This document shows, piece after piece, positions 2,529 to 22,317 of a stretch of 24,501 nt of DNA. The translations under genes were made by a program, and so were the position numbers. Position 1 is the stretch's first letter, and each line of letters opens with the position of its first letter. The notes below the pieces were generated by a model. The model was not told where the DNA came from. It ran no database searches and saw nothing but the letters and a program-made list of their open reading frames with translations. Location of the stretch: positions 1 to 24,501 of the forward strand of contig JAGRMP010000347.1 in NCBI GenBank assembly GCA_020441225.1, written 5' to 3'. This DNA is from Maritimibacter sp. (lineage in GTDB: Bacteria; Pseudomonadota; Alphaproteobacteria; Rhodobacterales; Rhodobacteraceae).

Positions 2529-2615
2529 GCCCGAGTGGCGGAATTGGTAGACGCAGGGGATTCAAAATCCCCCGATGGCAACATCTTGTCGGTTCGAGTC
2601 CGACCTCGGGTACCA
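2529..2615 (+). tRNA. tRNA-Leu (anticodon CAA)
   Basis: 87-nt class II tRNA with encoded CCA. The acceptor strand GCCCGAG at 2529-2535 pairs with CTCGGGT at 2605-2611, with one G-U at the end. The anticodon stem GGGGA/TCCCC encloses loop TTCAAAA, giving anticodon CAA (codon UUG). A long variable arm and the T-loop TTCGAGTC are present. A run of six T follows at 2629-2634 and may end transcription. An integrase gene ending 85 bp downstream suggests the 3' half of this tRNA served as attachment site for the adjacent island. Confidence 0.96.
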
Positions 2616-2699: not shown

Positions 2700-3785
2700 T
2701 CAATCCGAACGTCGCATCTGCGCATTGCGCGAGAGCGTCTTTCGGTCCGCTTCTTTGCGATATTTCGCTACCATTTCGAGGCTCTGACCGGTCACCGCCT
2801 GGATCTCCGCGTCGGAGCAACCTGCCTCCGCGAGTTCGACACAGGCGCGTTTTCGCAAACCATGAAGAGTGTACCGCGTGGCATCGTCGTCATATTCATC
2901 TGCGATGTCGGCGAGCGTAGTGCGCCATTTCCTGAAATCCTTCTCAATCGAGTCGTACGATTTCGGCGATTTCTCGGTTCTTGCCAGCACATGGCGCGAG
3001 CCAGCCGGAAGTCCTCCCACAAGGGTCCGCAGGCGGTCAGGACAGTAGATCGGAAAGGTGTTGTCGCCCTTCTCGTCGCGAACGGTGACCCACTCACCCT
3101 GGAAAGCACTGCGCAGCATTTTGATCGCGGCGGACGGGCGTTGGCCGGTCCCTCGGATCAGCTCGCACGCGGTGCGTACATCCGAGGGGGCATCGTCCAG
3201 GGCATCGAGCATCCAGTCCGGCCAAGTCGGATACTCGCGCTGTGGACCATATTTGTCTATGCGAGCCGCCGGGTTCTCACCCAAAGGCCAGTCGAGCTGT
3301 TCCTTTGCATAGTTCCAGAGCAGAGAGACCGCTTGCAGCATCCAATCGGCCGCACGGGTCGTAGAAGCCATCGCATTGTGTTTGTTACGAATTGCCGTGC
3401 GCGTCGTGAAAGCCATCGCCTTGTCTGCGTTTTTCTCGAGGATCTTTTCGAATTCCCGATTGTATGACTTCCTGGTGCTCTCAGCGAGCTTCAGTATGTT
3501 TTTCGGATCAGTACGCCACTCGCGGATGCACTCACCCCAGGTGTGCGTCGGCGTTTTTCGCTGAGACGGATGTCGTCCAGCCTCAACAGCCCAGTATTCC
3601 TCATCGAGCTTCTGAAAGTCCCCGCCCCAATTCAGTTTGATTGCGCGCTCCTTGCGCTTGCCGGAAGCGTCGGTCCACGTGATTCGATGGTACGGGACCC
3701 ATTCACGCCCGTTGCGGGGCCAAACCCATTTCAGGCGCTCCCTTTTCACTTTCGGTTTCGGGGGCCGTTTCCTACTCGAAGTCAT
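2700..3785 (-). CDS. int: Tyrosine recombinase (phage-type integrase)
   Basis: 361-aa site-specific tyrosine recombinase expected to integrate and excise the island at the neighbouring tRNA-Leu. The N-terminal third is basic, with a core-binding-like helical segment at about 85-175. The catalytic domain shows the first Arg in GTGQRPSAA (about residue 216), an HGLRKR box (His308, Arg311), and the nucleophile in VAKYRK (Tyr342). The second conserved His is replaced: the LGH-type box reads VTGQS. The start at 3785 (MTSSRKRP) overlaps the excisionase stop by 14 bp, suggesting coupled translation; 26 more codons are open upstream. Transcription runs toward the tRNA, as is usual for tRNA-targeting islands. 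Confidence 0.93.
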   Translation of the reverse strand: MTSSRKRPPKPKVKRERLKWVWPRNGREWVPYHRITWTDASGKRKERAIKLNWGGDFQKLDEEYWAVEAGRHPSQRKTPTHTWGECIREWRTDPKNILKLAESTRKSYNREFEKILEKNADKAMAFTTRTAIRNKHNAMASTTRAADWMLQAVSLLWNYAKEQLDWPLGENPAARIDKYGPQREYPTWPDWMLDALDDAPSDVRTACELIRGTGQRPSAAIKMLRSAFQGEWVTVRDEKGDNTFPIYCPDRLRTLVGGLPAGSRHVLARTEKSPKSYDSIEKDFRKWRTTLADIADEYDDDATRYTLHGLRKRACVELAEAGCSDAEIQAVTGQSLEMVAKYRKEADRKTLSRNAQMRRSD

Positions 3786-3984
3786 CGTGTTCCTCTGGTT
3801 TACTCGCCGCGCCGGAAAAAATCGCTTCCAGGTCCGCGACGTACCAACGCTCGATTTCGCCAATATGTTGGGCCGGCGGCAGAGCTCCCCGGTCCACGAG
3901 CCGACGGAACTCCGCCGCCGACATGTCCAGCATGGCGGCGGCAGTCCGTTCCTTGACTGCGATCGGGTGTGCGCGCGGTTGCAT
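3772..3984 (-). CDS. AlpA/MerR-like DNA-binding protein, probable excisionase
   Basis: 70-aa protein with one helix-turn-helix: RTAAAMLDMSAAEFRRLVDRG followed by a short wing ending in RWYVADLEAIF, the pattern of AlpA/HTH_17 excisionases. The acidic tail (EEHDDFE) overlaps the integrase start. Known proteins of this kind bend attachment-site DNA to direct excision, or activate the integrase gene. The ATG at 3984 is preceded by a GGAG motif about 8 nt upstream and gives an excisionase-sized product. The frame stays open to a GTG at 4143, but the extra 53 residues look non-coding. Confidence 0.75.
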   Translation of the reverse strand: MQPRAHPIAVKERTAAAMLDMSAAEFRRLVDRGALPPAQHIGEIERWYVADLEAIFSGAASKPEEHDDFE

Positions 3985-4396: not shown

Positions 4397-6010
4397 ATGA
4401 GTATGTCGTTGCGCGAAGGCCTTTCGCCCCTTGCAAATCGAATGCCTCGCCCGACGCGCAACATCGAGGTCCTGAGGGTCTCGGCACGACTCGACGGCCG
4501 CGATTACGCGGCCGTGGCGAACGAAGCACGGCAGGCCGTGCTCGCATGGGCACAGAGAAGGGCGGGTGCCCGGCTGCCGCAGGAAGCCTGGGACCACGGC
4601 GAATTCGAACTCCTGGCAGGCGGGCGCAATAGCATGGCGGTGAGGGTGTCGAACGAACGCGCCGACATATGGTCTCTGCGAGCAGAGGATCCCGACAAGG
4701 ATGTCGCCGGCAGGGTTTGGGCCACTGAAATCGTCATCGGTGGTGCCATTGATGAACGACCCCAAGTCGGTGTTCGACTTGTTGTCTCTACGACGGAACA
4801 TGATCTCAACATTGAACCGCATGTGCCTGGCTTGGTACTCCAACTCGCTGAGTCCCCTGGCCTGATCCGCGGTGGGCGCAAACTTCGAGGCACAAGCACC
4901 ATCGTTTCCACCGAGCACGATACGGAAGATCTCTGTGACCACCTGATCGACCCGGATCGCCACCTCCCAGTTGTAGTCGCCTCAATCCCCGAGGACTCCG
5001 ACGGCGAAACCATGATCGACCTTGAGACTGTGGCGAAATCGACGGTCGGGATGGCACGTGTGTTTCGGTTGACGCCACAAGCGAGCTGGACCATGACCCG
5101 GCGCCTGGGGAGCAAACGTTCCGTTTTCGCTGGCGGTGTCAGGATCTACCTGCCTGGTTTCTCCGAGGTTGATGATCCCTACCGGCATCGACTTTTCCTC
5201 GCCGACCATTTGATCCTCGCAGAAGACCAGGCGGCGTGCGAGGCGTGGTTGCGGCGGACGGTCGCGGATACCGCAATCGCGGGGCTTCGTCTCGGCAAAG
5301 ATGTCCTGGAGTTCGTCAATGTTCGAACAGCGAGTAGGCGGCTCCAGAAGGAGGACGCGAAGGGCGCCGGGTCAAGCGACTCCGACGCCACCGAGGCATT
5401 CGAAGGACTCATTGCAAGCCTTGAGAGCGAACTCGCTGAAAAAACCGGAGAAATCGACGGATACGTGGATGAAATAGAAGCCACGGAAGCTCGGGCAGAA
5501 GCGTCGGAACAAGAAAACCGTGCCCTGCTCGCACGGATCCGAGTCCTGGAAGCTGCGCTGGTGGCATCAGGCGAAACCGAACAACGGTCGGAGGAGCTAC
5601 CTTCAAGCTGGGCGGACTTCGCTGACTGGATCGATGAGACCTACCCGGACCGGGTAGTTCTGACGAGAGCCGCCCGGCGAATGCTGCGCAGCCCCGATTA
5701 TGAGGACGTTACGAGCGCGGCCAGAATGGTGCGATGGCTTGCAACTGATCATTTTGCAATGCGGATGAATGGTGGGGACAGCCTCAGAGACTACCCCATC
5801 GAACCTGGATTCCGGAACTCGCTGTGCGGCGGCGACGAGTATAGGACGTACTGGAGAACTCGTTCCCAACAGGTCGACTGGCACGTCAAGAACGGCGGCA
5901 ACACACGCGACCCGAGGCGTTGTTTCCGGATCTATTACTTCTGGGAGCCGGAAACCCAAACGACGGTCATCGACCACCTTCCGGGTCACCGGACAACTTC
6001 AGCCTCGTAG
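4397..6010 (+). CDS. Unrecognised coiled-coil protein beside the Druantia locus
   Basis: 537-aa protein with no family I can name securely. Residues 1-300 look like a mixed alpha/beta globular domain with several short hydrophobic strands. About 305-395 is acidic and Ala/Glu-rich with heptad spacing, a likely coiled coil. Residues 405-537 form a second globular part beginning SSWADFADWIDETYPDRV and ending in a block with HVKNGGNTRD, RRCFRIYYFW and DHLPGH. I believe similar C-terminal blocks occur in other uncharacterised island proteins, but I cannot confirm this. A GGAG lies 7 nt before the ATG; a second ATG is two codons later. It ends 40 bp from the converging druE stop and lies inside the integrase-bounded island, so it may be an accessory defence gene or an independent system. 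No enzyme motif is apparent. Confidence 0.8.
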   Translation: MSMSLREGLSPLANRMPRPTRNIEVLRVSARLDGRDYAAVANEARQAVLAWAQRRAGARLPQEAWDHGEFELLAGGRNSMAVRVSNERADIWSLRAEDPDKDVAGRVWATEIVIGGAIDERPQVGVRLVVSTTEHDLNIEPHVPGLVLQLAESPGLIRGGRKLRGTSTIVSTEHDTEDLCDHLIDPDRHLPVVVASIPEDSDGETMIDLETVAKSTVGMARVFRLTPQASWTMTRRLGSKRSVFAGGVRIYLPGFSEVDDPYRHRLFLADHLILAEDQAACEAWLRRTVADTAIAGLRLGKDVLEFVNVRTASRRLQKEDAKGAGSSDSDATEAFEGLIASLESELAEKTGEIDGYVDEIEATEARAEASEQENRALLARIRVLEAALVASGETEQRSEELPSSWADFADWIDETYPDRVVLTRAARRMLRSPDYEDVTSAARMVRWLATDHFAMRMNGGDSLRDYPIEPGFRNSLCGGDEYRTYWRTRSQQVDWHVKNGGNTRDPRRCFRIYYFWEPETQTTVIDHLPGHRTTSAS

Positions 6011-6050
6011 CCCTGGTCGAAGACGCAAGCGACACACGGCCACTCGTGTT

Positions 6051-9000
6051 TCATTGGCTTTCCCAGACAATGGGTTCATCGCCACCTGAAATCGCAAGCG
6101 CACGCCCAAAAATACCTTTGGCCTGGAGCGCAGGATCTTGTCGGAAATCGTGCCGCAGATCCTTGCCACCACATTTCCACCCCCCAAATCCCTGGTCGAA
6201 AAGGACGCGGTAACGGCGGCCATCCTTCAGGCGGATTGTCATCTGGCGTCGATGAGGGAGGTCGTTCTTTCGCATCGCCATCCGGATATTCGCACTGGGC
6301 AACAGCGCGCGCAGAAACGATATTCGGGCTCCATCGTCGATGAAGCTGTGAAACACCTTCGGGAAATCGGGCTGATTCCAGGGCGCTTCGTTCGGCGCAA
6401 GATCAATCGAAAGCGACGCACCGGTGGCGCCAGGTGCGGCCCTCAACGTCTCCGACAGGAGGACCACGGTGACCGGGGTGAGCATATAGCGATCCGAATA
6501 GGATATCGCCTCGACCCCATGGTCTGCCATCGCCGACATTTCCAGGGGCAGGTGTCTCGACAAAGCCTTCCAGAATCTTGCGCCAAAGCCACGGATTGGC
6601 CCGTCAAGACTTGCGTCAGGTTCAATGACCTTTCCGTTTCCTGTGCCGAATTCGAGCAGTTTCGACGCCGACAGCAGGGTTGGCGTCGCCTCTGAAGAAT
6701 AGGGCCCGACAAGGATGGCGGCGCCCGATCCGTTGGCCCATTCAACAGTGGGGACCGCCTCATTCTCGGCCTGGACCGCAACGCCCCGTCTGGCGCCGTC
6801 CTTGCCGGAAAGGCACGCGACCATGGCGAGACCGCCCGCATCGAGCATCTCCGGGATGATGCCGACCTTGGCGTGCTCCGAGATGCGATGCAGCGCGAGC
6901 TTGACCCCGAGGTCAAACCCAGCATGGGAAATCGTGTTCTTCGCAAAGAGCAGGCGTACCTCGGTGCCCGACTCCGCGAGGTCCCGTATTGCGCCCCGGG
7001 CATTCCAAGCGGAAAGGTCCCAAGTGTCAGGATGCCCACGCAGAAACAGATCGACTCTCGAGAGCGTACCGGCGCGCCGGGCCCGGTCGAGGGCGGCAGT
7101 CAGGCTGCCGCCAAGCGAGCGCGTCGCGGGCCCGAAAACCTGTAATGCGTCTGGTATGCGGATTCTCTCGAGGATGGTTCGCGCGCAGCGCAAGGCCGCG
7201 GCCCGGTCGAGGCGGATTTCCTGGAGACTCAAGTCGGGTTGAAGGATGCAGGACGGGCAACCGTGCACACATTTCTCGGGACAATCGAGCACCTCGGCCG
7301 CTCGGGCCAACATGGCTGCGAAAAGCTCGGCTTCCTGCAACCGGGCAACCAGGCCTGCGCCCCCGGCGGCGCGGTCGAGAAGCCAAAGCGATACCAGACG
7401 GTCCTGGTCCACCCCGACACTCGGTCCGGCCGCGACGCCGATCTCGGCGGTCTCGACGCCGAGGCGTTCGCTGAGGGCCTCGCGCAGGGCCGCACCGAGG
7501 GCCAGGGCCGCGCCTTCGCCGACGCCGGCCGGCAGCTGAAACTCGAACACATCTGTGCGGGTTGTCTGCGCAAGGTGAACGTTGCGCTGAAGACGGTTCG
7601 GCGCGGTGTAGCCTCCCGGGCAGCGATTGTCAGAGGTTAGCCTGGTCGATTGGCTGCGTGCGAGGGGGAAATGGCGTTCCATTACGGAGGGGATTGCAGC
7701 CGCAACACCTTGTTCGGGATCGGCCATCGGTGCGGCCCGGCCGCAGTCCAGGCAGACCGCGAAGCCACCACCGAGTTTTCCGCTCGAGCGGTTCACGACC
7801 AACCCGACCGGGTCGTGCCGATAGCGACCCGCCGTCGGATCGGGGAGGGCGATCCAGTCGGCTCCCCGGGCAGAAACGCGCGGCGCGATGTAGGGGCTGT
7901 GTTCGAGGGCCTCGTATCCAGTGTGCGGGGGCTTGCGGGTCAGGAAGCCCGCGGGCCTGAGGATCTTCTTGGTCTCGATTGCGATGCCCTGGCAACTTGG
8001 GCAGGCGTCGGGCGCGCCAACGGCCGAGACCCCGAAGGCGTGACAGGTCTTGCATTCCCAGTAGTACTGAAAATCTTCCAGCTTCGAGGTGTCGGTTTCC
8101 GCGCCCCAGGCCGGGCGTACACCCTCGGATTGGTAGACCAGACCGTCGATGACCAGCTCGGCACCAGGCGCATATTCCCGGATCGCCTGGTGCAATTCCC
8201 GCGATGCACCGCCACGCTTGTGGAAACTGATCCCCTGGTCCTCGTATTGCCCGCCAGAGATCAGCGGGTCGAACGTGACCACGTCGGTGGCGAACCCATA
8301 CGCCGGGGTGAAGCCGCGCCTCGCGAGGTCCCCGATCAGGAATTCTCCGGCCATTCGTTTTGCACGCAGTTCGAACGCTTTGGCGGCGTCGTCCTCTGCA
8401 CCATTCTGGCGGTCCAGGATGTCGCGATATTCCTGCCGCCAGGTCTGGGTGATCTGTTCCAACGCATTCAGGGTCCGCTCGATCATGTGGTGCGTCTGCA
8501 CCCCGTCGAGAACCGTACCTTTCACCAGATCCGTGAGCCGCATGACCAGATTGGTGTCATTTGCGAGGTCGCCTTTCAGATCGTCCAGGCAACTGTCGAC
8601 GGGCGAGCCCCCGACGATCGCCGTGTCGACCTTTTCCGTTCCGAAGAACCACCCGGAGTTCGCCCGGATATTGAGACCGCCTCCTGTCCGGAACCAGTGG
8701 CCGAGCAGAGCGGCATTCACGTGGCGTTGCACCAGAGGGGCGCTGTCGAACCATACTTTGGGTGCCGCGATCGGGCGTTTCAGGAATTCGATGGGCTTCT
8801 TGAAGGCGAGAATGTCGAGAGGAAGATCGCGGCAGAAGGTCAGCCCGAACGCCCAGGGTTCGCGCCGGCGTCCTGCCCTGCCGACCCGCTGACGGTAGTT
8901 CGAAAGGGCAGGGGGGACGTTGGCATTCACCACGAGTTGGACTGCGGCGATATCGACGCCCATTTCCATTGTGGTCGAGCAGTTGAGAAGGTTGATCTCG

Positions 9001-12000
9001 CCGTCGTTGAAGCGGGTTTCGTAGTTCTTCAGGACCTTCCGTTCGATCTGGGCCGAATGTTCCTGGGCCCGGATGAAGGCGGGGTAGGTGGCGACACGGT
9101 CGGTCATGTCGCTCCAGAGCCCGCGTCGGCGTAGCGCAGCTACGGCGGGGTCCGTCTGGCACCAGTCGGCGATCTTTTTTCGGTCGGCCGTGGTGAGTCC
9201 GCCGGCATCCGCGTGCGGCAGCGACGGATAGGGAATCCGGTCCATCGGCCGCGTGATGTCGTAGGGTGTGCGGCCGGCTACAGAGTAGGAGAATGGCCGG
9301 CGCGTAACCGGGCACAGCCAGGCCTGTTCAAGCTTCGCCACGGCCGCCTTGTTGAAGTCGAGGCGCCAATGTCCGGTACCCATCGATACCAGTACGTTCC
9401 TTTGCAGGGTCGCCCAGAGGGCTTCGAGGGTTTCCGCGGCCAGATCCTGATGCTGCGGATTGCCCGGGTCGCCGCCAAACAGCCCGTACACCATCTTCTG
9501 CAGGCGTGACGGCCGGGTCTTCACAATCGGCCCGGGCCAGGCGCGCGCGATCTTGCTCGTTTCTTCGGCGGGGGCGTTCGCAGGCACGATTGAATTCAAC
9601 TTGCCGAACTTCGGAGAGACGATCGGGACCATCCACTCGGGGAGGTTCGTGGCGAGGTTGTCGCGGAAGACGAAATCGATGGCAGCGAAAGCGAGACCGC
9701 GCCAGCCTTCGGCATCAACGCCAGCCTGAGCGAGTGGACGAGGCACGGTGCCGGAGGCGATCTCTGCTTCCAGGCTCGGGAAAGCGAGTCGGACAAGCCC
9801 CATGGTTTCGGGGTTGTTCTGCACCTTCGGGCGGCGGAACAATTCGCGGAAAAGGAACATCTGCGCGAGGTCCCCGGGATGGTCGGCCATGCGTCCGCCG
9901 AGTTTCCGGGTCGACCAGACTTCGCCCGCGAAGGCCGTCAAGTCGGTATTGGCAGCGAACCTATCGATGAGGTCGGTCCAGGGGATGGGCTTCGCGATTT
10001 CCCCGGAAAGGGAGGCGCGCTCGCGCTCGAAATCTGCGATCATGTCTGCAAAACCGGCCTCGTCGGCTGCCCGAAGTCGCGCGATTTTTGCCTCAATTTC
10101 CGAGAGTTTGGCAGGGTCGGCCGGTGCCGATGTCTTCTGCACCGCGTGGTACAGGAAGCTCCGGGTCAGGGTGCGTTCCGCCTCCTGTTGCAGTTTCGCG
10201 GCGAGGCGTGCGACGCCCTGGCGGCTGTCAGAAAAGCTGATGGCCTTGCGCCCCCCGGCCGGCAGCCCGGGCCGGTTCTCGGGAAGGGTGAGGTCATCGA
10301 GCGCTTGCGGGATGGCATTGCCGAGAAAGAAGGTCGGGCCGAACCGCAGACTCTGCATCCGGACATGGTCCGCCTCGTCGCAACAATTGCGCTCCTTCGG
10401 CTCTTCGATCAGTTGCACCTGGTGGCAACGAGATGTTGCCGGTGGACCGTTCTCGAAAACCAAGCCGGTGTCGGATTCGACCCAAACCGTGTTCCCCGTC
10501 GTCGTGTCCTGACGCAAAAACACCATGGTCGTCCCGAGCGGCGCGTCCTCGTCCTCGCCGGTGTCCTCCGGTTCGGCGTCGAGGGCATAGTCATCGCCCT
10601 CTTGTGCCTCGGGTGTCTCAAGCCGCGGTTGTGCGCCGATGTGCATCAAGGCTTGCAGATGCACCGTTCCGCAGGAGGTGCACGCCACCACCTCAAACAC
10701 GGGCGCGCCGCATTTGCAGATCGGGCGCGGCGCGAGGTAGATCGCGCCGAACTGCCAATCGCTGCCTTCCGATGCGAGCTCCGGGTCCCGCTGTGCGCAG
10801 GCCGCGTCAATGCAGGCATAGATTCCGCCCTGAGCGCGATGGAAGAGGTGGGCGCGCCAGGGAAGGAATGCGTTGTCCCCCGAAGCGGCTTGCCCGGCCG
10901 CATCGAGCACCTTCTGCGCCTCCTCCTGGTGGTCGGGATCGTCGAAAAGGGCGGTGGATGCGGCGGCAAGATCGACCGGGTTGTCGTTCAGTTGGCGCCG
11001 GAGCGCCTGAAGGCGGGGGTGCGGGGCCAGGCTCTGCCACAACTCCGCATCGGTCTTGTGTTCGAGAGAAGCCACATCGACTGCGACGTCGGGTCCGGGC
11101 AAGGGAAGGATCGGCTGATCTTCGACCCCTTCGACGACCGCCACCTGCGTTGTCTCCTGACCTGCGAGCGCAGCGGTGAATTCGGCGAGTTTCTCGTTGG
11201 CGTTGGCCTCGCCGCCAATGGTCGCCGAGGTCGCGATCAGGCGGACATCCTGCGGCGAGACGTTGAACGCCGCGCGCACCCGGCGCAACAAGAGCGCCAT
11301 TTCAGCGGCCTGCGATCCGACATATGAATGCGCCTCATCGAGAACGATCCAGCGCAGGGCCCCGGACGAAGCATCGAGAAGGGCACGGTCCTGTTCCCGC
11401 AGCAGCATGTATTCCAGCATGGTGATGTTGGTAACGAGGATGTCGGGCGGAGATTTCCTGATGTCCTTTCGATTGGTCAACTCTACCTCGGTCGAACGGG
11501 CGCCGCCCTGGAAGGCCGTCTCGGGCGTGTCGCCGTTGTAGAGGGCGAATTTCACCCGGCCGCCCAATCCGCTTGCCCAGGCCGAAAGCCGTTCGCGTTG
11601 ACTCTCGATCAATGCGTTGAGCGGATAGAGAAGGATCGCCTGGATCCCGCCTCCGATGCGGCTGCGGGTCAGGATATCGTTGAGCAACGGGATCAGGAAA
11701 CACTCGGTCTTGCCGGAGCCCGTACCGGAGGTGACAAGCACCGACTTGTTGTCCTCGAGGCTCGCCCGCCATGCCGCGAGTTGGTGCGCATAGGGTGCGC
11801 GTTCGCGCGGCATGACATAACTCTGCGCGCTCGCCAGGGCCTCGACGAGACGCTCGTCGAGCAGGTCACCGGCAAGGTCTCCCAGGGAAACCTCGGCCGG
11901 TTTCCATGCCTTTGCCGCCTCAAAGACCGGCGATGCGAGCAGGGCATCCTGGTGTCCGGGGGCAGACGCCAACCGCCGCAGGAGCGCCGAGTTGAGCGCG

Positions 12001-12095
12001 AGGCTGGAGGTGCGTGACCGCGCGACGACGGCCGAAGCCGACCGCTGGGCCATACGATCGAGGGCATCGCCAAGGTGGGAGTGTCGAAATGGCAT
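6051..12095 (-). CDS. druE: Druantia DruE-type giant DEAH helicase with DUF1998-like region
   Basis: About 2014-aa superfamily 2 helicase. Motif I is SGTGSGKTE at about residues 123-131, motif II DEAH at 253-256, motif III-like SATIGG at 290-295, and the second RecA lobe ends with QRVGRAGRR at about 1067-1075. Cysteine pairs occur at about 459-475 (CKC...CTSC), 1347-1366 (CKTC...CPSC) and 1605-1616 (CPEKCVHGCPSC). The last, preceded by DRAAGGAG, is characteristic of DUF1998 helicases. Some 400 further residues follow. Size, helicase plus DUF1998 and the partner gene match DruE of Druantia anti-phage systems. The ATG at 12095 lies 4 bp after the partner's stop, indicating coupled translation; 88 codons are open upstream inside the partner gene but read as a shadow. 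DISARM or Dpd helicases are alternatives, but their partner genes are absent. Confidence 0.88.
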   Translation of the reverse strand: MPFRHSHLGDALDRMAQRSASAVVARSRTSSLALNSALLRRLASAPGHQDALLASPVFEAAKAWKPAEVSLGDLAGDLLDERLVEALASAQSYVMPRERAPYAHQLAAWRASLEDNKSVLVTSGTGSGKTECFLIPLLNDILTRSRIGGGIQAILLYPLNALIESQRERLSAWASGLGGRVKFALYNGDTPETAFQGGARSTEVELTNRKDIRKSPPDILVTNITMLEYMLLREQDRALLDASSGALRWIVLDEAHSYVGSQAAEMALLLRRVRAAFNVSPQDVRLIATSATIGGEANANEKLAEFTAALAGQETTQVAVVEGVEDQPILPLPGPDVAVDVASLEHKTDAELWQSLAPHPRLQALRRQLNDNPVDLAAASTALFDDPDHQEEAQKVLDAAGQAASGDNAFLPWRAHLFHRAQGGIYACIDAACAQRDPELASEGSDWQFGAIYLAPRPICKCGAPVFEVVACTSCGTVHLQALMHIGAQPRLETPEAQEGDDYALDAEPEDTGEDEDAPLGTTMVFLRQDTTTGNTVWVESDTGLVFENGPPATSRCHQVQLIEEPKERNCCDEADHVRMQSLRFGPTFFLGNAIPQALDDLTLPENRPGLPAGGRKAISFSDSRQGVARLAAKLQQEAERTLTRSFLYHAVQKTSAPADPAKLSEIEAKIARLRAADEAGFADMIADFERERASLSGEIAKPIPWTDLIDRFAANTDLTAFAGEVWSTRKLGGRMADHPGDLAQMFLFRELFRRPKVQNNPETMGLVRLAFPSLEAEIASGTVPRPLAQAGVDAEGWRGLAFAAIDFVFRDNLATNLPEWMVPIVSPKFGKLNSIVPANAPAEETSKIARAWPGPIVKTRPSRLQKMVYGLFGGDPGNPQHQDLAAETLEALWATLQRNVLVSMGTGHWRLDFNKAAVAKLEQAWLCPVTRRPFSYSVAGRTPYDITRPMDRIPYPSLPHADAGGLTTADRKKIADWCQTDPAVAALRRRGLWSDMTDRVATYPAFIRAQEHSAQIERKVLKNYETRFNDGEINLLNCSTTMEMGVDIAAVQLVVNANVPPALSNYRQRVGRAGRRREPWAFGLTFCRDLPLDILAFKKPIEFLKRPIAAPKVWFDSAPLVQRHVNAALLGHWFRTGGGLNIRANSGWFFGTEKVDTAIVGGSPVDSCLDDLKGDLANDTNLVMRLTDLVKGTVLDGVQTHHMIERTLNALEQITQTWRQEYRDILDRQNGAEDDAAKAFELRAKRMAGEFLIGDLARRGFTPAYGFATDVVTFDPLISGGQYEDQGISFHKRGGASRELHQAIREYAPGAELVIDGLVYQSEGVRPAWGAETDTSKLEDFQYYWECKTCHAFGVSAVGAPDACPSCQGIAIETKKILRPAGFLTRKPPHTGYEALEHSPYIAPRVSARGADWIALPDPTAGRYRHDPVGLVVNRSSGKLGGGFAVCLDCGRAAPMADPEQGVAAAIPSVMERHFPLARSQSTRLTSDNRCPGGYTAPNRLQRNVHLAQTTRTDVFEFQLPAGVGEGAALALGAALREALSERLGVETAEIGVAAGPSVGVDQDRLVSLWLLDRAAGGAGLVARLQEAELFAAMLARAAEVLDCPEKCVHGCPSCILQPDLSLQEIRLDRAAALRCARTILERIRIPDALQVFGPATRSLGGSLTAALDRARRAGTLSRVDLFLRGHPDTWDLSAWNARGAIRDLAESGTEVRLLFAKNTISHAGFDLGVKLALHRISEHAKVGIIPEMLDAGGLAMVACLSGKDGARRGVAVQAENEAVPTVEWANGSGAAILVGPYSSEATPTLLSASKLLEFGTGNGKVIEPDASLDGPIRGFGARFWKALSRHLPLEMSAMADHGVEAISYSDRYMLTPVTVVLLSETLRAAPGATGASLSIDLAPNEAPWNQPDFPKVFHSFIDDGARISFLRALLPSANIRMAMRKNDLPHRRQMTIRLKDGRRYRVLFDQGFGGWKCGGKDLRHDFRQDPALQAKGIFGRALAISGGDEPIVWESQ

Positions 12096-12099
12096 GGTG

Positions 12100-15000
12100 T
12101 CAATCCTGGGCTTGGACAGCGAGTTGGACTGCGAGAGGAAGCGCCAGCGCGAACCATTCGGGATCGGCGAAACGCAATGCGAGCAGTTCGAGGATCTCCG
12201 GCCCATTGGGTTTCGGCGCGATCCCCGCCGCGACCTCGGCAACGCGGAGCGGGGCCTCCAGGAGCGGGCGCAGTTCGTCGGCGAATTCAAGAGGAGGCAC
12301 CAGCCGGGTGGGGCGTTTCGATCCTCCGCCCTGGGGCAGCATTGGGGATCTTGAAGCAAGCTGCCCCCCGAAGACCAAGAGCATGTCCGCGGGGCGTTTC
12401 ACCGCCAGATCCACCCGTTCGCCATTCTGATCGGAGAGAAATGGAACATATCCGGCGACCTTCAGGGCCGCAGCGAAATGTCCGCCAAGTTCCGGGCGCA
12501 ACTGGAGAATTCGCCACAAGCGTTTCCGAACCGCTCCGAGGGCGGTCTCATTTGCTTCCTGCGGTTTGAGCCCCGCGCTCATGAGGTTCCTGGCTATATG
12601 GGCGAATGTGTGGGAGATCGCAAATTGCCAGTCCCTGACCTTGATCAGCGGCCACCACAGCGGGGCCTCGGTTTCGAGGTCCAGGATTTCCAGCGGATCC
12701 GGGTGGCGCATCAGCAGGGTCGCAGCGAACCGTTCGGAGCGACCGAGCGACTGGACCTGATCCAGAGCCCCACAGTCTCCGGCATTTCGTCCCGCGCGGA
12801 CCAGGTCAAGAAATTCCTGCCAACCCGGGGCATCCGGGTGCTCGAGTAGATCATTGAACGCCGCGCAATATGAGGCGATCCGGGCTTCGCGTTTCCTCTC
12901 GGTCGGTCCATCGCCCGTCCAGGCAAGAGGACGCATGACCCCATGGGCAGAATGCCCTTGGACAAACCAGACTGTCCCAACATCGCTGAGCCAAGAGGCA
13001 AGGTTGAACGGGCCGGATGCTTCGGTCTGGCGGGTCAGGATCGGCATTGAAACCGTCATCGCCGAAAGCGCTACGGGATCGCTCCCGAGGTCAGGTTCGC
13101 CGGCGACGCGCTCCGGCGACCAATCGTATCGCGAAATCTCCAGCCGGTCGCTCTGACCTGCCTGGGCGAGGCGCAGGTTGACCTTCCCATCCGCACCCGA
13201 CAGCGCCACCGCCTGTGCCAGGAGGTCCCTGTAGGTGGCAAGTCGGATTGTGCCCGAAGCCGGAAATCCGATCGGACTGCCTTCGGCAATTCGCAACAGG
13301 ACGGCGCCACCTTTGGCCGGCAACACGCCGCGCCAGCCGGAAATCGAGCCGAGTGCAACCTGATGGTTGCGGGTCATGCGCGCGCCATCGGGCGCAACCA
13401 ACATGGGGTCGCGCGCCGGCCAGCTCCGTTCGAGTCCAAGACTCGCCCCGGATTGAGTCTCAAAAAGACGAACCTGGAGGGCGCTTGGTGTGCCCGCGAC
13501 GTCCTTGAGTTCGGCCACGACCCTTTCGCCGTCTCTGTGCCCGTGCACAACCGAGTTGGCCGCCTCCAAAATTATTTGCCAGGTGGGTGGCACACCTGTC
13601 GCCATCAGCCTCACGTGCCCAGGAGCGATCTCCTGGGCGTGAAGGCTGACGTCTTGCGGGACGACCACGCACCGAACGGACGCACGCGGGACGCCGCCGC
13701 TGGTCCATCGGTAGATCCGCCCTCCAAGGAGCTTCGGTATTTCCGAAGCGGTCACTTGCCGGGTCACGTCATGAAGCGGCGACTCGGCCTCTGCTGCGAG
13801 GAAGTAGGGTTCACCACGGTAGATGGTGACGCCAGAAACAGCGCGCCATTCAGGAAAAGGTGTGCCGAAGGGTATCAACTGGACTTCGGTCGCGTCGGCA
13901 TCGGACCCGGTCGCAATGCTGAACCGATGGTGGCCGCACGCGACTTCGCCCTGGCCCGAGAATTGCCAGAGCACCCCGTTGGGTCCTGGTGCGCTCTCAT
14001 GGATGCGCGCGCTGGCGGACACCTGCGGGGCATACTCCGCCGGGAGCAACGCCCAGATACTGTCGTTCTTGGTGCGCGGACCGTGGAGCGGCGCGAGGCG
14101 GTCGGTGTGACCGTTGTCGGCACGCCAGAAGCTGGGTGCCTCATCCGGAAGCGGGGAACCGGGGTCAAGTACGACGTCACCGAGGGCATGGCCGTCCGCG
14201 CTGACGGCGAATGCCAGGGGCTCGCTTGGCGACAGGGCCACGAAGTCGCGAGCGGCCCGCCGGAGCCGCCATCCGGTCTCGTCCGGCCCGGCTCTCAGGA
14301 TCATACCCGCATCGGAGGTGAGGCGCAGGACCAGGCGCTGTTCGACATTTGGCAGCAGTGCCTTCGGCAGGAGGCCGCCATCTGTCACCTCGGCAGTGCC
14401 TACCCAAGCGGTTCCGTCCACGCTGCGCCTAAGAAAGCGCCGGACCATTTGTCCGATGGCGGCGGTCCGATGGATGCGTTCGGAAAGGGCCGGGCGCAAG
14501 ATGGTGCGCCGCGCCTCCTCTGACAATCGAATGGGTAGTTGGTGCGCCCAGCCGGGGCGGTTCCGTTCGAGCCAGATCTCTATGGCATTGTCGTCCAGAT
14601 TCTCAGGCAGGGCCCGCCTGAGGATTGCCAGCGCGAGCGCGAGATCGCAGAGCATCTCGACCGCCTCTTCGTCCTGATAGACTGCCGGGAGCGCTGTTAT
14701 TCGCCTACGGGCGACTGGGAGGGCCATTTCGCGATCGGAAACGGAGTGCCTCAAGAGTTCCGACACCGTCAAAAGCACGGCGTCTGCATATCCGCTATGT
14801 CGCGTTAGGAACGCGTCGGGAAGCCCTCCCTCGGCCATCAAGGAGTAAAGGAACAGCCGTTTCGCGTCAGTGTCGCGGCGGCGGACTTGGCGGCCCCATT
14901 GTTTTAGGCCCTGCTCTACCAAGGCACGTCCGTAGCCGTGGTCGCCACTTAGACCGAGACCTTGGAATACGAGGTCCCAAGATAGCGATCCTTGTCGGTA

Positions 15001-15198
15001 GTCCTTCCGAATGAACTCGGCGGCCCAAAAAACGAACCAGCGCGCGGTGCTCGGGAGCGTCTGGCCACTCGCGATACGAATTTTCAGCAGTTGCGAGAGG
15101 TGGTCGAACTCCTCATCGCCACAGTCGTAGGCGTGCAAGGGCCGCCCATCTGGCGAGTGCAATGCACGCCGCGAAAAAAAATATTCGTCGAAGTCCAT
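12100..15198 (-). CDS. druH: Druantia type III DruH-like protein
   Basis: 1032-aa protein without recognisable enzymatic motifs. The N-terminal ~270 residues are helical. The middle (about 270-760) is rich in predicted beta strands with many short V/G-rich segments, and the C-terminal ~270 residues are helical again. A ~1000-aa protein of unknown function immediately upstream of a ~2000-aa DUF1998 helicase is the defining pair of Druantia type III. I believe such proteins are annotated STY4851/ECs_5259-like in enterobacteria, but that is from memory. Start ATG at 15198 (MDFDEYFFSRR) has AGGTGAG about 5 nt upstream. It probably recognises phage DNA or proteins together with DruE; the mechanism is not established. 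Confidence 0.8.
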   Translation of the reverse strand: MDFDEYFFSRRALHSPDGRPLHAYDCGDEEFDHLSQLLKIRIASGQTLPSTARWFVFWAAEFIRKDYRQGSLSWDLVFQGLGLSGDHGYGRALVEQGLKQWGRQVRRRDTDAKRLFLYSLMAEGGLPDAFLTRHSGYADAVLLTVSELLRHSVSDREMALPVARRRITALPAVYQDEEAVEMLCDLALALAILRRALPENLDDNAIEIWLERNRPGWAHQLPIRLSEEARRTILRPALSERIHRTAAIGQMVRRFLRRSVDGTAWVGTAEVTDGGLLPKALLPNVEQRLVLRLTSDAGMILRAGPDETGWRLRRAARDFVALSPSEPLAFAVSADGHALGDVVLDPGSPLPDEAPSFWRADNGHTDRLAPLHGPRTKNDSIWALLPAEYAPQVSASARIHESAPGPNGVLWQFSGQGEVACGHHRFSIATGSDADATEVQLIPFGTPFPEWRAVSGVTIYRGEPYFLAAEAESPLHDVTRQVTASEIPKLLGGRIYRWTSGGVPRASVRCVVVPQDVSLHAQEIAPGHVRLMATGVPPTWQIILEAANSVVHGHRDGERVVAELKDVAGTPSALQVRLFETQSGASLGLERSWPARDPMLVAPDGARMTRNHQVALGSISGWRGVLPAKGGAVLLRIAEGSPIGFPASGTIRLATYRDLLAQAVALSGADGKVNLRLAQAGQSDRLEISRYDWSPERVAGEPDLGSDPVALSAMTVSMPILTRQTEASGPFNLASWLSDVGTVWFVQGHSAHGVMRPLAWTGDGPTERKREARIASYCAAFNDLLEHPDAPGWQEFLDLVRAGRNAGDCGALDQVQSLGRSERFAATLLMRHPDPLEILDLETEAPLWWPLIKVRDWQFAISHTFAHIARNLMSAGLKPQEANETALGAVRKRLWRILQLRPELGGHFAAALKVAGYVPFLSDQNGERVDLAVKRPADMLLVFGGQLASRSPMLPQGGGSKRPTRLVPPLEFADELRPLLEAPLRVAEVAAGIAPKPNGPEILELLALRFADPEWFALALPLAVQLAVQAQD

Positions 15199-15235
15199 AT
15201 CTCACCTATTGGAAGAGAGATGGACATGCCTTGCC

Positions 15236-15712
15236 CTACCAGATCAAGGGCAAAGTTGGCTGTGACGGAAGTGAGGGGGCCTCTGTCTGAACCGGCATGG
15301 GGCCACGAAGACATTTCACGGCGTCATGAAGCGCAATGAGTTCGGTTTTCGCGACCGACGGCACTTTGACCGAGCTCGCGCGCACCTCACTGAAATCGAT
15401 CGCTTCCATCGTCGCGCGAACGAACTCGACCGGGGCTCCGGTGGCGCGAACGAAGTAGTTGGATGCAGGCGAATACCCGGTGGACCGTTCAATATCACGC
15501 GGCAGATTCAGCATCGCGCCGGCGCGAGCACCAACCCAGCGTATCACGAAATCCGCGTCCACGACGTGCAGATCACCCGGGAGAGCCCGAACTATCGGAT
15601 CGGGTAGATAAACAAAATAAGGCGCGTAGCGCGGCTTGGAGTTCCTTGGGCTGAATGACTTCGGTGGGAAGTGTTGGAACATATCAAGAACTGTCAGCGG
15701 ATTCAGATGCAA
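15236..15712 (-). CDS. Hypothetical protein upstream of druH
   Basis: Up to 158 aa from a TTG at 15712, or 148 aa from the ATG at 15682; neither has a clear Shine-Dalgarno. It ends 37 bp before druH, so it could be the first gene of the Druantia operon. The central part (LPGDLHVVDADFVIRWVGAR) faintly resembles the first strands of a PAS domain, but I see no binding-site residues and do not assign one. The C-terminus is proline-rich. It may be an intact small protein or the 3' part of a gene damaged by the IS66 fragment upstream, since another open frame overlaps its start by about 10 nt. Confidence 0.5.
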   Translation of the reverse strand: MHLNPLTVLDMFQHFPPKSFSPRNSKPRYAPYFVYLPDPIVRALPGDLHVVDADFVIRWVGARAGAMLNLPRDIERSTGYSPASNYFVRATGAPVEFVRATMEAIDFSEVRASSVKVPSVAKTELIALHDAVKCLRGPMPVQTEAPSLPSQPTLPLIW

Positions 15713-15858
15713 TTTAGATTCAGGTAGCGGGCGATAGATGCAATTTGTCTGCGTGCCATGAGTTGTTCGAAACGTTCTGTGCTGATGGGCCCCCAGCCTT
15801 GTGCTCTCTTGTCAAACTGCGCTCGGGTTGATTGGTGAACGTCCTGCGTAGGCCGCGG
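15703..15858 (-). pseudogene. Short coding-like fragment between IS66 remnant and 158-aa ORF
   Basis: A 51-codon frame with no stop follows directly after the tnpC stop and ends at TGA 15703-15705. From about 15845 it reads plausibly as protein (for example RAQFDKRAQGWG and ERFEQLMARRQIASIARYLNL) rather than as noise. It has no start near its upstream end; the only ATG is at 15760. It overlaps the possible TTG start of the next ORF. It may be the 3' remnant of a gene cut by IS66, or the earlier part of the 158-aa ORF separated by a frameshift. Confidence 0.3.
15705..15746. repeat. 11-bp direct repeat with 31-bp period
   Basis: AGATGCAATTT is found exactly at 15705-15715 and 15736-15746. The 31-bp spacing is close to three helical turns, so bound proteins would sit on the same face. 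It lies at the start of the gene preceding druH, where an operator or promoter would be expected. Regulation is inference. It could equally be a duplication scar. Confidence 0.5.
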
Positions 15859-16155
15859 TCAGGCGGCCTTTCGGCTGGGTGAGGTCAGGCGCCAATGCCA
15901 GGGCAGAAGTTCCGGCACCTGTGACGCGCGGGTGTCGGGCGGCCGGGCGAGGACGTCGGCGAGCCGGGCTTGGGGATCGACGTCGTTCAGGTTGGCGGTG
16001 ACGATCAGAGAATACATGAACGCGGCGCGGTCGCCGCCGCGCTTGGAGCCGGCGAAGAGCCAGGACTTGCGGCCGAGGGCGACGCCGCGCAGGGTTCGTT
16101 CGGCGGCGTTGTCAAAGGGCATGATGACCTGCGGCGCCTCGGTTCTGCTTAGCAC
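15859..16155 (-). pseudogene. IS66 transposase TnpC, 3' fragment
   Basis: The 98-codon frame matches the C-terminal end of IS66-family TnpC: DNAAERTLRGVALGRKSWLF, then RAAFMYSLIVTANLNDVDP, and the terminal DVLARPPDT...ELLPWHW signature. Full-length TnpC is about 500 aa, so more than three quarters is missing. The 5' side is cut near 16140-16155, where IS110-like sequence begins. The lost part is not found in the window. Confidence 0.85.
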
Positions 16156-16159
16156 TGGA

Positions 16160-16350
16160 CCTGATCCCTGTCTGGGGGCAGCCTTCGGATACCGGGCCGG
16201 GGCGTCGGGAGCATGAAACGGCGGTAGGCCGTCCCGACCATGAGCTTCGAGCTCGCGTTGTTACGTGGCCACCCCTGCGGCCTGCCCGGTTGCGCTGCGA
16301 GCGCGGATCCGTAGATGTTGTGCAGACCCGCCAGCTCCCGTCAACTGAAG
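16160..16350 (+). ncRNA. Possible IS110 bridge-RNA region
   Basis: IS110-group elements encode a structured bridge RNA in the non-coding left end upstream of the transposase, specifying target and donor DNA. Here the only long non-coding part of the element lies in that position, is GC-rich and has several short self-complementary stretches (for example around CGAGCTCG at 16252). No specific fold or loop was derived, so this is a positional prediction only. Confidence 0.3.
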
Positions 16351-16360
16351 GAGAGGGAGC

Positions 16361-17567
16361 ATGCGTGTCATTGGCATGGACGTCCACCGAGCGTTTGCCC
16401 AGGTCGCTATCCTGGACGACAGGAAGGTGGTCAGCGAACACCGCGTCGAACTCGCGCAGGAGAAGGTCCTCGCGTTCGGGCGCACACTCGGACCGGAGGA
16501 TGAGGTGGTGCTGGAGGCGACCGGCAACACCGCGGCGATCGAGCGACGGCTTCGGCCGTTCGTTCCCGGGTGGTGTTCGCCAACCCGCGTATGGTGAGGG
16601 CGATCGCCTACGCCCGGGTCAAGACCGACAAGATCGATGCCATCACACTGGCGCGCCTTCAGGCTTCGGGATTTCTGCCTGAAGTCTGGGCCGCCGACGA
16701 AGAGACCGTCCGCCGGCGCCATCAGGCTGCCGAACGGATGGGCCTGCTGGAAGAGACGGTTCGGCTGAAATCGCGCATCCGCGCGATCCTTCACGCCAAC
16801 CAGGTTCCGAAATACAAAGACGCCCTCTTCTGTCCCACGGGTCGCCGCTGGCTGGCCAGGGCAGCGCTCCCTGACCATGAACGGCTGATCCTCAACCGCC
16901 TCGTCGACAAGTTGCAGCACACCACCGAGCAGCTCGCCAGTCCCGGTCGGGACCTCGCTCGCCTGGCTTTGGCCGACGCGCGCGCGGCGCGGCTGATGAC
17001 CATTCCCGGCATTGGACCGATCGTCGCGGCGATGGTCCTCAGTTCGATCGGGGACATCTCGAGATTCGAGACTCCGCAGAAACTCGCGACCTACTTCGGC
17101 CTCACGCCAAGGGAGCGTCAGTCGGGCGCGGGCCTGGCCCGTGACGGGCGAATCACGAAGCAGGGCAACGCTGCCGTACGCAAGATGTTGGTCGAGGCCG
17201 CGTGGTCGGACAGACCGCTCCGGGACCGCTGCGCGCGTTTTTCGCCCGTATCGTCGCCAGGCGCGTCGCCGCGACGGCGATCGTTGCAACGGCCCGAAAA
17301 TTGGCGGTGTTGATCTGGCATGTACTTGCCAAAAGTCAGGACTATGCCTTCGCGCGCCCCGACTTCCAGGCCATGAAACTGCGCGAGGTCGCTCTCAAAG
17401 CTGGCTCACCCCGGGCGTATGGAAACGCCGGTCCTGGCCGGGACTAATGGATCAAGGAAATCCGCCAGCTTGAGATGGAATACGTCAAGCGCGCCGAAGA
17501 TGCCTTTGCCCGCATGGCGGAAGCCTGGCGGCAGGCGCCTCCCAAGGCGAAGAAATGGACCTGCTGA
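16361..17567 (+). pseudogene. IS110-family transposase, disrupted
   Basis: About 400 codons spread over all three frames. The N-terminal RuvC-like DEDD domain starts MRVIGMDVHRAFAQ; the acidic positions are in GMDVH, VLEATGN and VKTDKIDA. The C-terminal Transposase_20 part has IPGIGPIVAAM, YFGLTPRERQSG and KQGNAAVRKML. A one-base loss near 16563-16566 shifts the frame between RPFV and VFANPRMV. A second shift near 17205-17215 separates EAAW from GPLRAFFARI. A TAA at 17445-17447 precedes the C-terminal tail (IKEIRQLEMEYV...). Start ATG at 16361 is preceded by GGAGAGGGAG. Three lesions make it a pseudogene unless the assembly is wrong. Confidence 0.88.
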
Positions 17568-19129: not shown

Positions 19130-19383
19130 TTCTTGCATAGGCGAGAGGGGAACGATGAACTTGCCGGCCTCCAGCCGCTTCGCATAGAGCAACATGCCGA
19201 CCCTGTCGTGCCAGAGCAGCTTCACGAGATCGCCCCGCCGGCCCCGGAATCAGAAGATCTCGCCCGCATGCGGATCGCGCCCCAGCCCCTCCTGCACCTG
19301 CAACGCCGCGTGCTCCTGGCGTGCCGCATGTCGGTCGCGCCACCCGCGATCCAGACCTACACCCCCGCCGGTAACGCGATCAT
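19130..19383 (-). pseudogene. IS66 TnpB (Orf2) remnant
   Basis: Starts MIALPAGV, then TAG (19357-19359) where the family has GVRVW, then VWIAGGATDMRHA. After a frameshift near 19320 it continues HAALQVQEGLGRDPHAGEIF, then a TGA, then FRGRRGDLVKLLWHDRVGM and AKRLEAGKFIVPLSP. These are the hallmark TnpB blocks. The end of the protein is missing beyond about 19130. Its ATG overlaps the tnpA stop (ATGA), the normal IS66 coupling. Confidence 0.82.
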
Positions 19384-19793
19384 TCGCCGTCCACCACTTC
19401 CATGAGCCGGGCCTGGGCCATCGGGTCCACCTCGCGAGGCACCAAGAGCCGCCGCCCGTTCCCCACCACGATCCCGGCCCTGGTGTCCGGCCGAACGGCC
19501 TGCGTCGCCGACACGGTCGACACTCCCGGCGTCGGAGGACCCGACGCCTACGTCACCGCGATGAACGCCGATGACGGCGCGCCACCAAGCTCGCCTTCCC
19601 GACACTGCCGCCGCCAGCTCGTCAGCAACGACCGCGACACCACATGCCGCCGGGCCACCGCTGAGACCTGCCGATGCCCGACAAAGTTCTCCTCAGCGAT
19701 CCGGATCTTTTCGGCGTCGTCCGAGTTCCGCCGCCGCGGCATATCCTCGGCGAACAGGACTTCTATCTCAGGTCTGAACCTACGGTCGGCCAT
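19380..19793 (-). pseudogene. IS66 TnpA (Orf1) remnant with in-frame TAG
   Basis: The N-terminal part contains a helix-turn-helix (VSAVARRHVVSRSLLTSWRRQ) typical of IS66 TnpA. The frame is interrupted by TAG at 19548-19550 but continues in the same frame (VRPDTRAGIVVGNGRRLLVP, MAQARLMEVVDGE) to a TGA that overlaps the tnpB start. Total 137 codons, the usual TnpA size, so one nonsense mutation is the only visible lesion. Confidence 0.78.
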
Positions 19794-20158
19794 AAGGTCG
19801 GACCTGTCACTGGCCCCAGAATCCGGTCAGGCGGTCCTCGCCGGAGGGACACATTGCTGCTCCCCAATGCTTTGATTTCGAGCGGGATTGTCGACCCCGC
19901 TCGAGGCTTTGGGCGGACCTCGCTCGTGGAGCGCGGCGGTTTTTTCCACCTTTGCGTTCCGACTTCGGTCCACGGCAAATTTCGAGGGACATTTCCCGGC
20001 CCGCCGGCAGTCCGGGTGGAAGAGTGCGCACCGTGAAGCCGAACGCTTGTCTGCCGCGGCCCCCCAAAAAAACTTCCCACATGGCCCAAGCGATCTCGCA
20101 GAACCTGCCCACTCGCATCCACTGGTTACTTGCATAGGAAGAAAAGGAGAAATTGCCC
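19794..20158. other. Gene-free region upstream of the envelope-protein operon
   Basis: 365 bp without a credible gene; overlapping long frames on both strands are low-quality. It must include the lost IS66 left end and the promoter of the operon starting at 20159. It contains a perfect inverted repeat (19878-19904, listed separately), and a small CGCTC/GAGCG hairpin at 19921-19933 followed a few bases later by six T at 19940-19945. No IS66 terminal repeat was recognised. Confidence 0.45.
19878..19904. repeat. Perfect 9-bp inverted repeat with 9-nt loop
   Basis: TCGAGCGGG (19878-19886) and CCCGCTCGA (19896-19904) are exact reverse complements around the loop ATTGTCGAC. It could be an RNA hairpin, an operator, or a relic of a mobile-element end. 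No T-run follows it directly, so a simple terminator is unlikely. Confidence 0.5.
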
Positions 20159-20696: not shown

Positions 20697-22307
20697 ATGT
20701 TCAAAGAAAAGTTCTCAGATTTCCTGTCTTTCGGAGTGGAAATGCTTCTCCATGGGGGCGACGACTTGACGGAGAGCCTGCGCCGGTCGGTTTCGCTCCG
20801 CGCCTTCTGGGTGCCGTTTTTCCTTGGGCTCGGTCTCCTTCTGACATTCACGGCCCGCCCGGCGCAAAGCGACAACAACGAGGCCTTGTTCGCGCAGGCC
20901 GGCGCCCGCATCGCGGCGACCCTCGGTGATGCCAGCAAATGCAAGTCAGAGGGATTGTTGCGCGTTGGGGTCTGGCCCTTTGATCCGCGCGACATTCCCG
21001 TCTCGGGTGCGAGTGCCAGCCGGATCTATGGGGCGTTCCTCTCGGGTCTACTTGACGATGCACCGGCTTGTCTGGGGGTCATCGACGTTTCCGGCGTCGG
21101 TATCACCCTCGAACTCCTCAACAAAGCCGGCGCGTTCCGCTCTGCCAGCACCGACACCAAAGCCGAGATCGAGGAAAACCTGCGCAGCGTGGACTTCTAC
21201 GTGGCGGGCACCATTCGTGAACAGGGGGGCACTCCGTTTGCCGAGTTCAAGGCGATCGCCCGTGACAGTGGCCAGATCGTTGCCAACGTGGGGCCGGTGG
21301 ACATCCCGTCGGATCTCGCAGGTGGCAGTTGCAGCGACGGGGCATTGTCCGTGGATGTTGCCATGAACCGCTTTGCCGGAAACATGCGGGACGCGGCGCA
21401 CAAGATGACACACCTCGTGGTCGACGGCGGCTACTACGCCGACACCAACGGCAAGACACCGTTCAGTTTCTACCTTGAAGACCTCATGGTGAGCCACCTC
21501 ACTCAGAAATTCAACGAAACGCTCTCCGGGCGCACGTTGTCCGTGCAGAAGCTGCACATGATGGATTCGGGCAATCTCATCAACTCACGCGGAATGGACA
21601 TCAATCCTCTTCAAATGGAGGATGACCTGGTCCTCACCCGGGTCGCCGGACAGACCGAAGGCGTGTTCCGGCTCAAGTTCCGCTACTGGATTTGCGAAGA
21701 TGCGGTGCGCACGGTCGCTACTCTTACTGGCAATGACGGGGAAGCCCACGCGTGGATTGAGAACATCCGGCTGGACACCACCCCCGATGGGCTTGCCTTG
21801 ACGCCACCGAAGCCGACCGAAGTTCGTGACTGGGGGCCCGACGGGGCATTCACTTTCCAGATGACGAGTCAGCGTGGCCAAAGCCCGACCTACCGTCCGG
21901 GCGAGAAGTTCGAGACGCTGTTCCGCCTCTCCCGCGACGCCTGGCTGTTCTGTTTCTACACGGACTCCGAAGGCGAAACCATTCAGCTCCTGCCGAACCC
22001 GTTCCAGATCACCCAGTCCGCGCCCAACTTCTACCAGGGGGGGAAACTGCACCTGTTTCCCGACAAGGACAGGCTCCCACAACCGGACCCGTTTGATCTG
22101 ACGATCAACGGAAACACCTACGGGATCGAGTCATTCCGCTGCTACGCCACGTCGCGCGACATCCGGGCCGACCTGCCGGCGGCGCTCAGGGGCACGTCCC
22201 TCGACCCGATCGAACCGAAGTATGCGGCACGGCTCAAGGAAATCTTCCAGTCGTTGGAGGGCGCGTCGATCTCGACGGCGTCGATGACGGTCACAGTGAT
22301 TGAGTAG
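20697..22307 (+). CDS. DUF4384-domain envelope protein
   Basis: 536-aa protein. The N-terminus has a charged ~35-residue stretch, then one hydrophobic segment (about 36-53) ending TARPAQS, acting as a signal anchor or long signal peptide, so the bulk should be periplasmic. Residues ~75-200 (LLRVGVWPFD...) recall the alpha/beta domain of CsgG/FlgO-like proteins, as inference only. About residues 390-480 match DUF4384: YRPGEKFETLFRLSRDAWLF, then YTDSEGETIQLLPNP. DUF4384 often accompanies caspase-like or TPR signalling proteins. Start ATG at 20697 has GAGGAGGAAG upstream. The next gene starts 10 bp after its stop, indicating an operon. Confidence 0.82.
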   Translation: MFKEKFSDFLSFGVEMLLHGGDDLTESLRRSVSLRAFWVPFFLGLGLLLTFTARPAQSDNNEALFAQAGARIAATLGDASKCKSEGLLRVGVWPFDPRDIPVSGASASRIYGAFLSGLLDDAPACLGVIDVSGVGITLELLNKAGAFRSASTDTKAEIEENLRSVDFYVAGTIREQGGTPFAEFKAIARDSGQIVANVGPVDIPSDLAGGSCSDGALSVDVAMNRFAGNMRDAAHKMTHLVVDGGYYADTNGKTPFSFYLEDLMVSHLTQKFNETLSGRTLSVQKLHMMDSGNLINSRGMDINPLQMEDDLVLTRVAGQTEGVFRLKFRYWICEDAVRTVATLTGNDGEAHAWIENIRLDTTPDGLALTPPKPTEVRDWGPDGAFTFQMTSQRGQSPTYRPGEKFETLFRLSRDAWLFCFYTDSEGETIQLLPNPFQITQSAPNFYQGGKLHLFPDKDRLPQPDPFDLTINGNTYGIESFRCYATSRDIRADLPAALRGTSLDPIEPKYAARLKEIFQSLEGASISTASMTVTVIE

Positions 22308-22317
22308 GAGTGAGAAT

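Follow-up and report, generated by a model that had tools for sequence, protein, structure and literature searches.

Described type III Druantia systems

Type III Druantia, a two-gene DruH-DruE defence system, is described for Escherichia coli in a 2026 preprint (PMC13192584) and for Mycolicibacterium smegmatis in a second 2026 paper (PMC13316683). In the E. coli system, DruH is the probable sensor of infection, with a late phage structural protein as its trigger, and DruE engages DNA at 3' single strands and cleaves it; DNA cutting was measured for DruE alone, nicking was measured for dimeric DruH, and no stable DruH-DruE complex was seen (PMC13192584). In M. smegmatis, DruH and DruE must interact and circularisation of phage DNA is blocked, and the 1667-aa DruE and its partner are both described as having no canonical nuclease domain (PMC13316683). 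The two accounts thus disagree on the DruH-DruE complex and on the location of the nuclease. Additionally, type III DruE was reported to carry two C-terminal PLD domains, of which the last one alone is predicted to be active (PMC12458937).

A type III pair in Maritimibacter sp.

The locus compared here with these systems lies in Maritimibacter sp. (Rhodobacteraceae; GCA_020441225.1), on contig JAGRMP010000347.1, and the whole stretch of 24,501 nucleotides that was analysed is called the window below. Judged from its sequence, the locus is almost certainly a complete type III Druantia, of the form with two PLD domains, in a Rhodobacteraceae-type genome. Its features are as follows.

12100..15198, minus strand: druH, 1032 aa, ATG start, frame unbroken
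6051..12095, minus strand: druE, 2014 aa with the ATG at 12095 as its start
DruE residues 126-130, 253-256, 290-293 and 1069-1076: helicase motifs Walker A (GSGKT), DEAH, SATI and QRVGRAGR, respectively
7245..7496, minus strand: MZB (MrfA Zn-binding, DUF1998-type) domain, DruE 1534-1617, Pfam PF09369, E 1.6e-8
6645..7148, minus strand: first PLD-fold domain (PLDi), degenerate, DruE residues about 1650-1817
6054..6644, minus strand: second PLD-fold domain (PLDa), DruE residues about 1818-2014, with D1868, H1948, R1950, D1967 and G1969

A preliminary description had noted two uninterrupted proteins of about 1032 and 2014 aa, spaced by 4 bp, and intact helicase motifs. The ORF coordinates bear this out, the 4 bp lying between the druH stop and the druE ATG at 12095, and all four motifs are found; the longest druE frame in the ORF listing, 6051-12359 (2102 aa), starts from a TTG, and the Pfam domain search was numbered on this form, longer by 88 aa. 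The same description had proposed a complete Druantia type III (DruH-DruE) system, a claim that held when the models were run on both proteins. DruE scores 1921.9 bits with the PADLOC DruE3 model PDLC00037, which it matches from residue 10 to residue 2001 of its 2014, and DruH matches NCBIfam NF038336 (YjiT/DruH) with 238.4 bits over residues 7-1021, against a curated cut-off of 150, and PADLOC DruH3 with 144.6 bits (best stretch, residues 6-288). The other PADLOC Druantia models give DruE 492.6 (DruE1), 356 (DruE2) and 335 bits (DruE4), and a better match to a DISARM or Dpd helicase, which had been raised as a possibility, was not obtained, with 81.3 bits for DpdJ and 41.4 bits for DrmA. Marker genes of the other types, DruA-D for type I and DruM/F/G for type II, had no PADLOC match among the 12 window proteins scanned, with small ORFs partly scanned.

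DruE is an SF2 helicase of the YprA family that carries a Zn module of the MrfA type and ends in two PLD-fold domains. Pfam finds the DEAD, Helicase_C and MrfA Zn-binding domains; the cysteines of the last are residues 1605, 1609, 1613 and 1616, and PF09369 matches all 61 A1 members. Both PLD-fold domains are seen by structure comparison in the DruE model (pLDDT 91.5), and this is the layout given in PMC12458937, where activity of the last domain is predicted only. The best solved relative by sequence is E. coli DruE 9tu7 (855 bits in two stretches), whose motifs agree in position with those of the DruE in PMC13192584 when the chain number is taken as the paper number + 4.

DruH is a YjiT-family protein and a probable phage sensor, with 53 other relatives listed at 31-42% identity. 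It matches the solved DruH 9tud at its N-terminus (85 bits), and this match and that to PADLOC DruH3 are limited to the N-terminal 250-290 residues. In the DruH structure model (mean pLDDT 90.6, pTM 0.84), helices predominate up to about residue 245 and again from 770 to 1032, and the stretch between, from about 250 to 765, is rich in beta structure. This predicted layout resembles that of E. coli DruH, in which helical ends flank a central alpha/beta and beta-rich part (PMC13192584).

Relatives and conservation of the pair

Scanning species genomes for DruE gave 239 relatives, and the best 80 loci were kept. The nearest are the DruE proteins of Rhodobacter sp. TJ_12 (65% identity) and R. capsulatus (64%). 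A quick tree of 61 DruE proteins groups the window protein with these two (SH-aLRT 100) and places the group among sequences mostly from Rhodobacterales. Together with a left flank syntenic with relatives' genomes, this agrees with the alphaproteobacterial origin first proposed.

Of the 80 loci, 67 have an ORF that resembles DruH, is 250 aa or longer and lies on the strand of druE; it adjoins druE in 65 of these, the exceptions being L005, where it is interrupted, and L031, where it lies 149 bp away and druE is in pieces. In L005 (positions 5486-9945), a Rhodobacterales MAG, druH appears to be interrupted, with 954 aa followed by a matching piece of 71 aa about 1.4 kb on. The remaining 13 loci gave no match for a DruH-like ORF; three of them (L018, L023 and L054) have less than 0.5 kb of upstream DNA, and in the other 10, where at least 1.7 kb of upstream DNA was searched, the partner may be missing or may have diverged beyond the reach of the search. 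Across 61 loci including the window, DruE and DruH identities correlate with a Pearson r of 0.98 (1830 pairs), and DruH is the less conserved protein in 1829 of the 1830 pairs. This fits the report that DruH and DruE spread as one module in which DruH is more divergent (PMC13192584).

Conserved residues and a proposed nuclease centre

The 33 DruE positions taken from PMC13192584 were mapped through the Escherichia locus L052 with an offset of 3 onto an alignment of 76 DruE proteins, and the DruH positions were mapped through the same locus without offset. The ATP-site residues K121, R165, D251, E252 and R1135 of E. coli correspond to K129, R169, D253, E254 and R1073 here and are identical in all 76 proteins; mutating K121, R165, D251 or R1135 abolishes E. 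coli Druantia III (PMC13192584). Similarly, the single-strand contacts N156, R207, N221, Y227 and R231 are kept in 76/76 and R1372 in 75/76. The window protein has all the near-invariant DruE cysteines and departs at none of the near-invariant polar positions (those shared by at least 72 of the 76). In contrast to these E. coli positions, the assembly residues H1415, K1546, H1572, H1574 and R2075 are variable and not conserved in the window DruE, so that higher-order assembly may differ.

In the C-terminal part of DruE, the conserved polar motif is confined to the second PLD-fold domain. D1868, H1948, R1950, D1967 and G1969 are present in 75 of the 76 proteins, and the sole exception ends at a contig edge. 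In E. coli DruE the motif includes D1947, H2037, R2039 and D2056, in the numbering of PMC13192584 derived as PDB chain number minus 4. The pocket residues named in PMC13192584 recur as the same residue in 19/76 (R1258), 3/76 (N1987), 4/76 (Q1990) and 4/76 (Y1995). The window DruE keeps R1207 (R1258) and N1907 (N1987) and differs at D1910 (Q1990) and F1915 (Y1995); the two residues that it keeps weigh against setting this pocket aside in the case of the window protein.

On the DruH side, mutating residues of the N-terminal surface abolishes defence in E. coli (PMC13192584), and much of this activation surface is conserved: among 64 DruH proteins G137 is kept in 64, W88 and G136 in 63 and L129 in 62, with lesser conservation of E75 (59), R78 (58) and F69 (55). 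The window DruH has F55, E61, R64, W74, W101, L117, L120, G124 and G125 of this surface, and carries S71, S73, Q100 and K65 in place of H85, K87, Y114 and R79 of E. coli DruH; H85, K87 and Y114 are not conserved across the DruH alignment. The reported ATP/Mg2+ ligands N672, Y733, D735, R1064 and K1067 are not conserved either, a variation that is only suggestive since the alignment is weak there, the C-terminus of the window DruH having 11% identity to that of L052.

Tentatively, we place the nuclease centre of type III systems in the last PLD-fold domain of DruE, a domain closest in shape to the MITD1 C-terminal domain, at its invariant Y-x-D-R-Y ... H-x-R ... D-Q-G residues, and not in the poorly conserved R1258/N1987/Q1990/Y1995 pocket; in the same tentative reading DruH is a sensor whose reported ATP/Mg2+ dimer site is particular to a lineage and not part of the core. 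It is rather unlikely that the cutting centre resides instead in DruH, as a dimer-dependent nuclease, with DruE acting mainly as a helicase. The nicking measured for dimeric DruH (PMC13192584) speaks for such an arrangement, as do the shorter DruE of M. smegmatis and the report that neither protein there has a canonical nuclease domain (PMC13316683), but cutting was also measured for DruE alone (PMC13192584), and the PLDa motif is all but universal in DruE while the reported DruH ligands vary in a weakly aligned region. Structure searches with the DruH model gave no match above background; no nuclease is among the PDB matches listed.

The most likely working scheme can be drawn by homology to the E. 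coli system (PMC13192584). DruH would recognise a late phage structural protein and act through its N-terminal surface; DruE, as a dimeric 3'-loading SF2 helicase, would load on phage replication intermediates where these are single-stranded, multimerise along them and cut the DNA. We propose that D1868, H1948, R1950 and D1967 of the last PLD-fold domain do the cutting and that the first PLD domain is structural. Such a division of labour between sensor (DruH) and effector (DruE) is probable; whereas the identity of the window pair comes directly from tool results, we infer its sensing, activation and cutting.

Surroundings of the locus

The pair is preceded and followed in the window by the following features.

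2529..2615, plus strand: tRNA-Leu(CAA), left island boundary (ARAGORN, Rfam RF00005)
2700..3863, minus strand: tyrosine-recombinase integrase beside the tRNA, 387 aa (Pfam PF00589; PHROG 1 integrase, E 1.9e-26)
4397..6010, plus strand: HEC-07 candidate defence gene, 537 aa (PADLOC PDLC04161, 606.7 bits, full length)
15236-15712, minus strand: orphan ORF, 158 aa, 37 bp upstream of druH, its sole database match being itself
15898-17450: remnants of IS66- and IS110-like transposases, no further than about 2.3 kb upstream of druH
20697-23100, plus strand: overlapping pair of genes for a DUF4384 protein (536 aa) and a peptidoglycan-binding/TPR protein (266 aa), by domain search

The preliminary description had also placed the locus in a tRNA island, and here the left side stands. 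Left of tRNA-Leu lie DsbB, VTT-domain and Zn-peptidase genes, a flank that is syntenic with parts of genomes in which DruE relatives occur. The Zn-peptidase gene adjoins tRNA-Leu(CAA) in four of five such stretches (L092, L093, L094 and L096; L095 has tRNA-Arg), and the similarity of L092 and L093 to the window ends at 2615, the end of the tRNA, as expected for insertion there. The right end was not found: a second copy of the tRNA 3' end (the far direct repeat) is absent from the window, and the right island end lies beyond its coverage. Among 12 druE loci scanned for tRNAs, chosen among the closer ones, 10 have none within the fetched DNA, which indicates that the location of the system varies from genome to genome.

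HEC-07 lies between the integrase gene and druE, tail to tail with druE and with 40 bp between the stops. It had no tblastn match in the 80 druE loci at E 1e-3, and it is treated here as a neighbour of the Druantia pair and not counted among its parts. HEC-07 is rare on plasmids (8 of 72,556 records). Further to the right, the DNA of 19241-19852 is 75% identical to a part of Paracoccus zhejiangensis plasmid pPZ03 for which no gene is listed. By eye, the frame of the IS110-like remnant looks broken.

These surroundings also bear on whether the pair is a relic, no longer functional, on a decaying island littered with IS elements, which is quite improbable. IS66- and IS110-like remnants do lie close upstream of druH, a scan of 14900-16200 for sigma-70-like promoters found none (alphaproteobacterial promoters are poorly covered by such a scan), and some relatives are broken: druE is in pieces in L010, L020 and L031, while L005, L009 and L020 have a split or interrupted druH. 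Against such decay, the druH and druE frames of the window are open over 3046 codons together, and the near-invariant polar positions of DruE are intact, which is what continued selection would lead one to expect.

Comparison with known systems

The locus is an ordinary member of an already known system, not a new system, and adds a small testable refinement. It is hardly credible that its helicase comes from another YprA/DUF1998 system (DISARM, Dpd, ARMADA or Druantia I/II) with a partner unrelated to DruH: an SF2 core and a Zn-binding module are common to these helicases and the DpdJ and DrmA models match weakly, but DruE3 scores 1922 bits against at most 493 for every other system among the best 25 of 34 families in a PADLOC copy of 2023 (presumably without a model by name for ARMADA, named in 2025), the C-terminus of the window DruE is PLD-type and not Vsr as reported for ARMADA and Druantia I/II (PMC12458937), and the partner passes the YjiT/DruH model over its full length. 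DISARM (DrmA/DrmB), Dpd (DpdJ) and ARMADA (ArmC), all of the YprA family, share the SF2 core and the DUF1998-type Zn module with the window system and differ from it in partners and nucleases.

As a divergent alphaproteobacterial member of a system whose mechanism is only now emerging, the locus is of use chiefly through the family comparison, which picks out residues whose mutation would help to settle which protein and pocket cut phage DNA, the point on which the two 2026 papers disagree (PMC13192584; PMC13316683). What is new here is a sharper prediction of the likely DNA-cutting residues, in the last PLD-fold domain of DruE.

E. coli Druantia III, cluster 11 (PMC13192584; 9tu7-9tuc for DruE, 9tud for DruH), has the same two genes and a DruE built alike, from helicase, Zn module and a pair of PLD-fold domains; its ATP-site residues, and part of its DruH activation surface, are the same as in the window. 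It differs in the assembly residues and in two of the four ATP-gammaS pocket residues, and a PADLOC match to Zorya is absent among the 12 window proteins scanned. At the sequence level, Escherichia L052 has about 30% identity to the window in DruE and less than 20% in DruH beyond residue 300. The M. smegmatis system is likewise a two-gene DruH-DruE pair, with antiphage activity there; by its published description its DruE has 1667 aa, against 2014 aa here, and is reported without a canonical nuclease domain (PMC13316683). The nearest relatives found, those of Rhodobacter sp. TJ_12 (L002) and R. capsulatus DSM 1710 (L003), have the same gene order and 64-65% identity in DruE and 47-48% in DruH, but they sit elsewhere, with no tRNA within the fetched 26 kb, and the druH-druE junction, a 4-bp gap in the window, is a 4-bp overlap in R. 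capsulatus.
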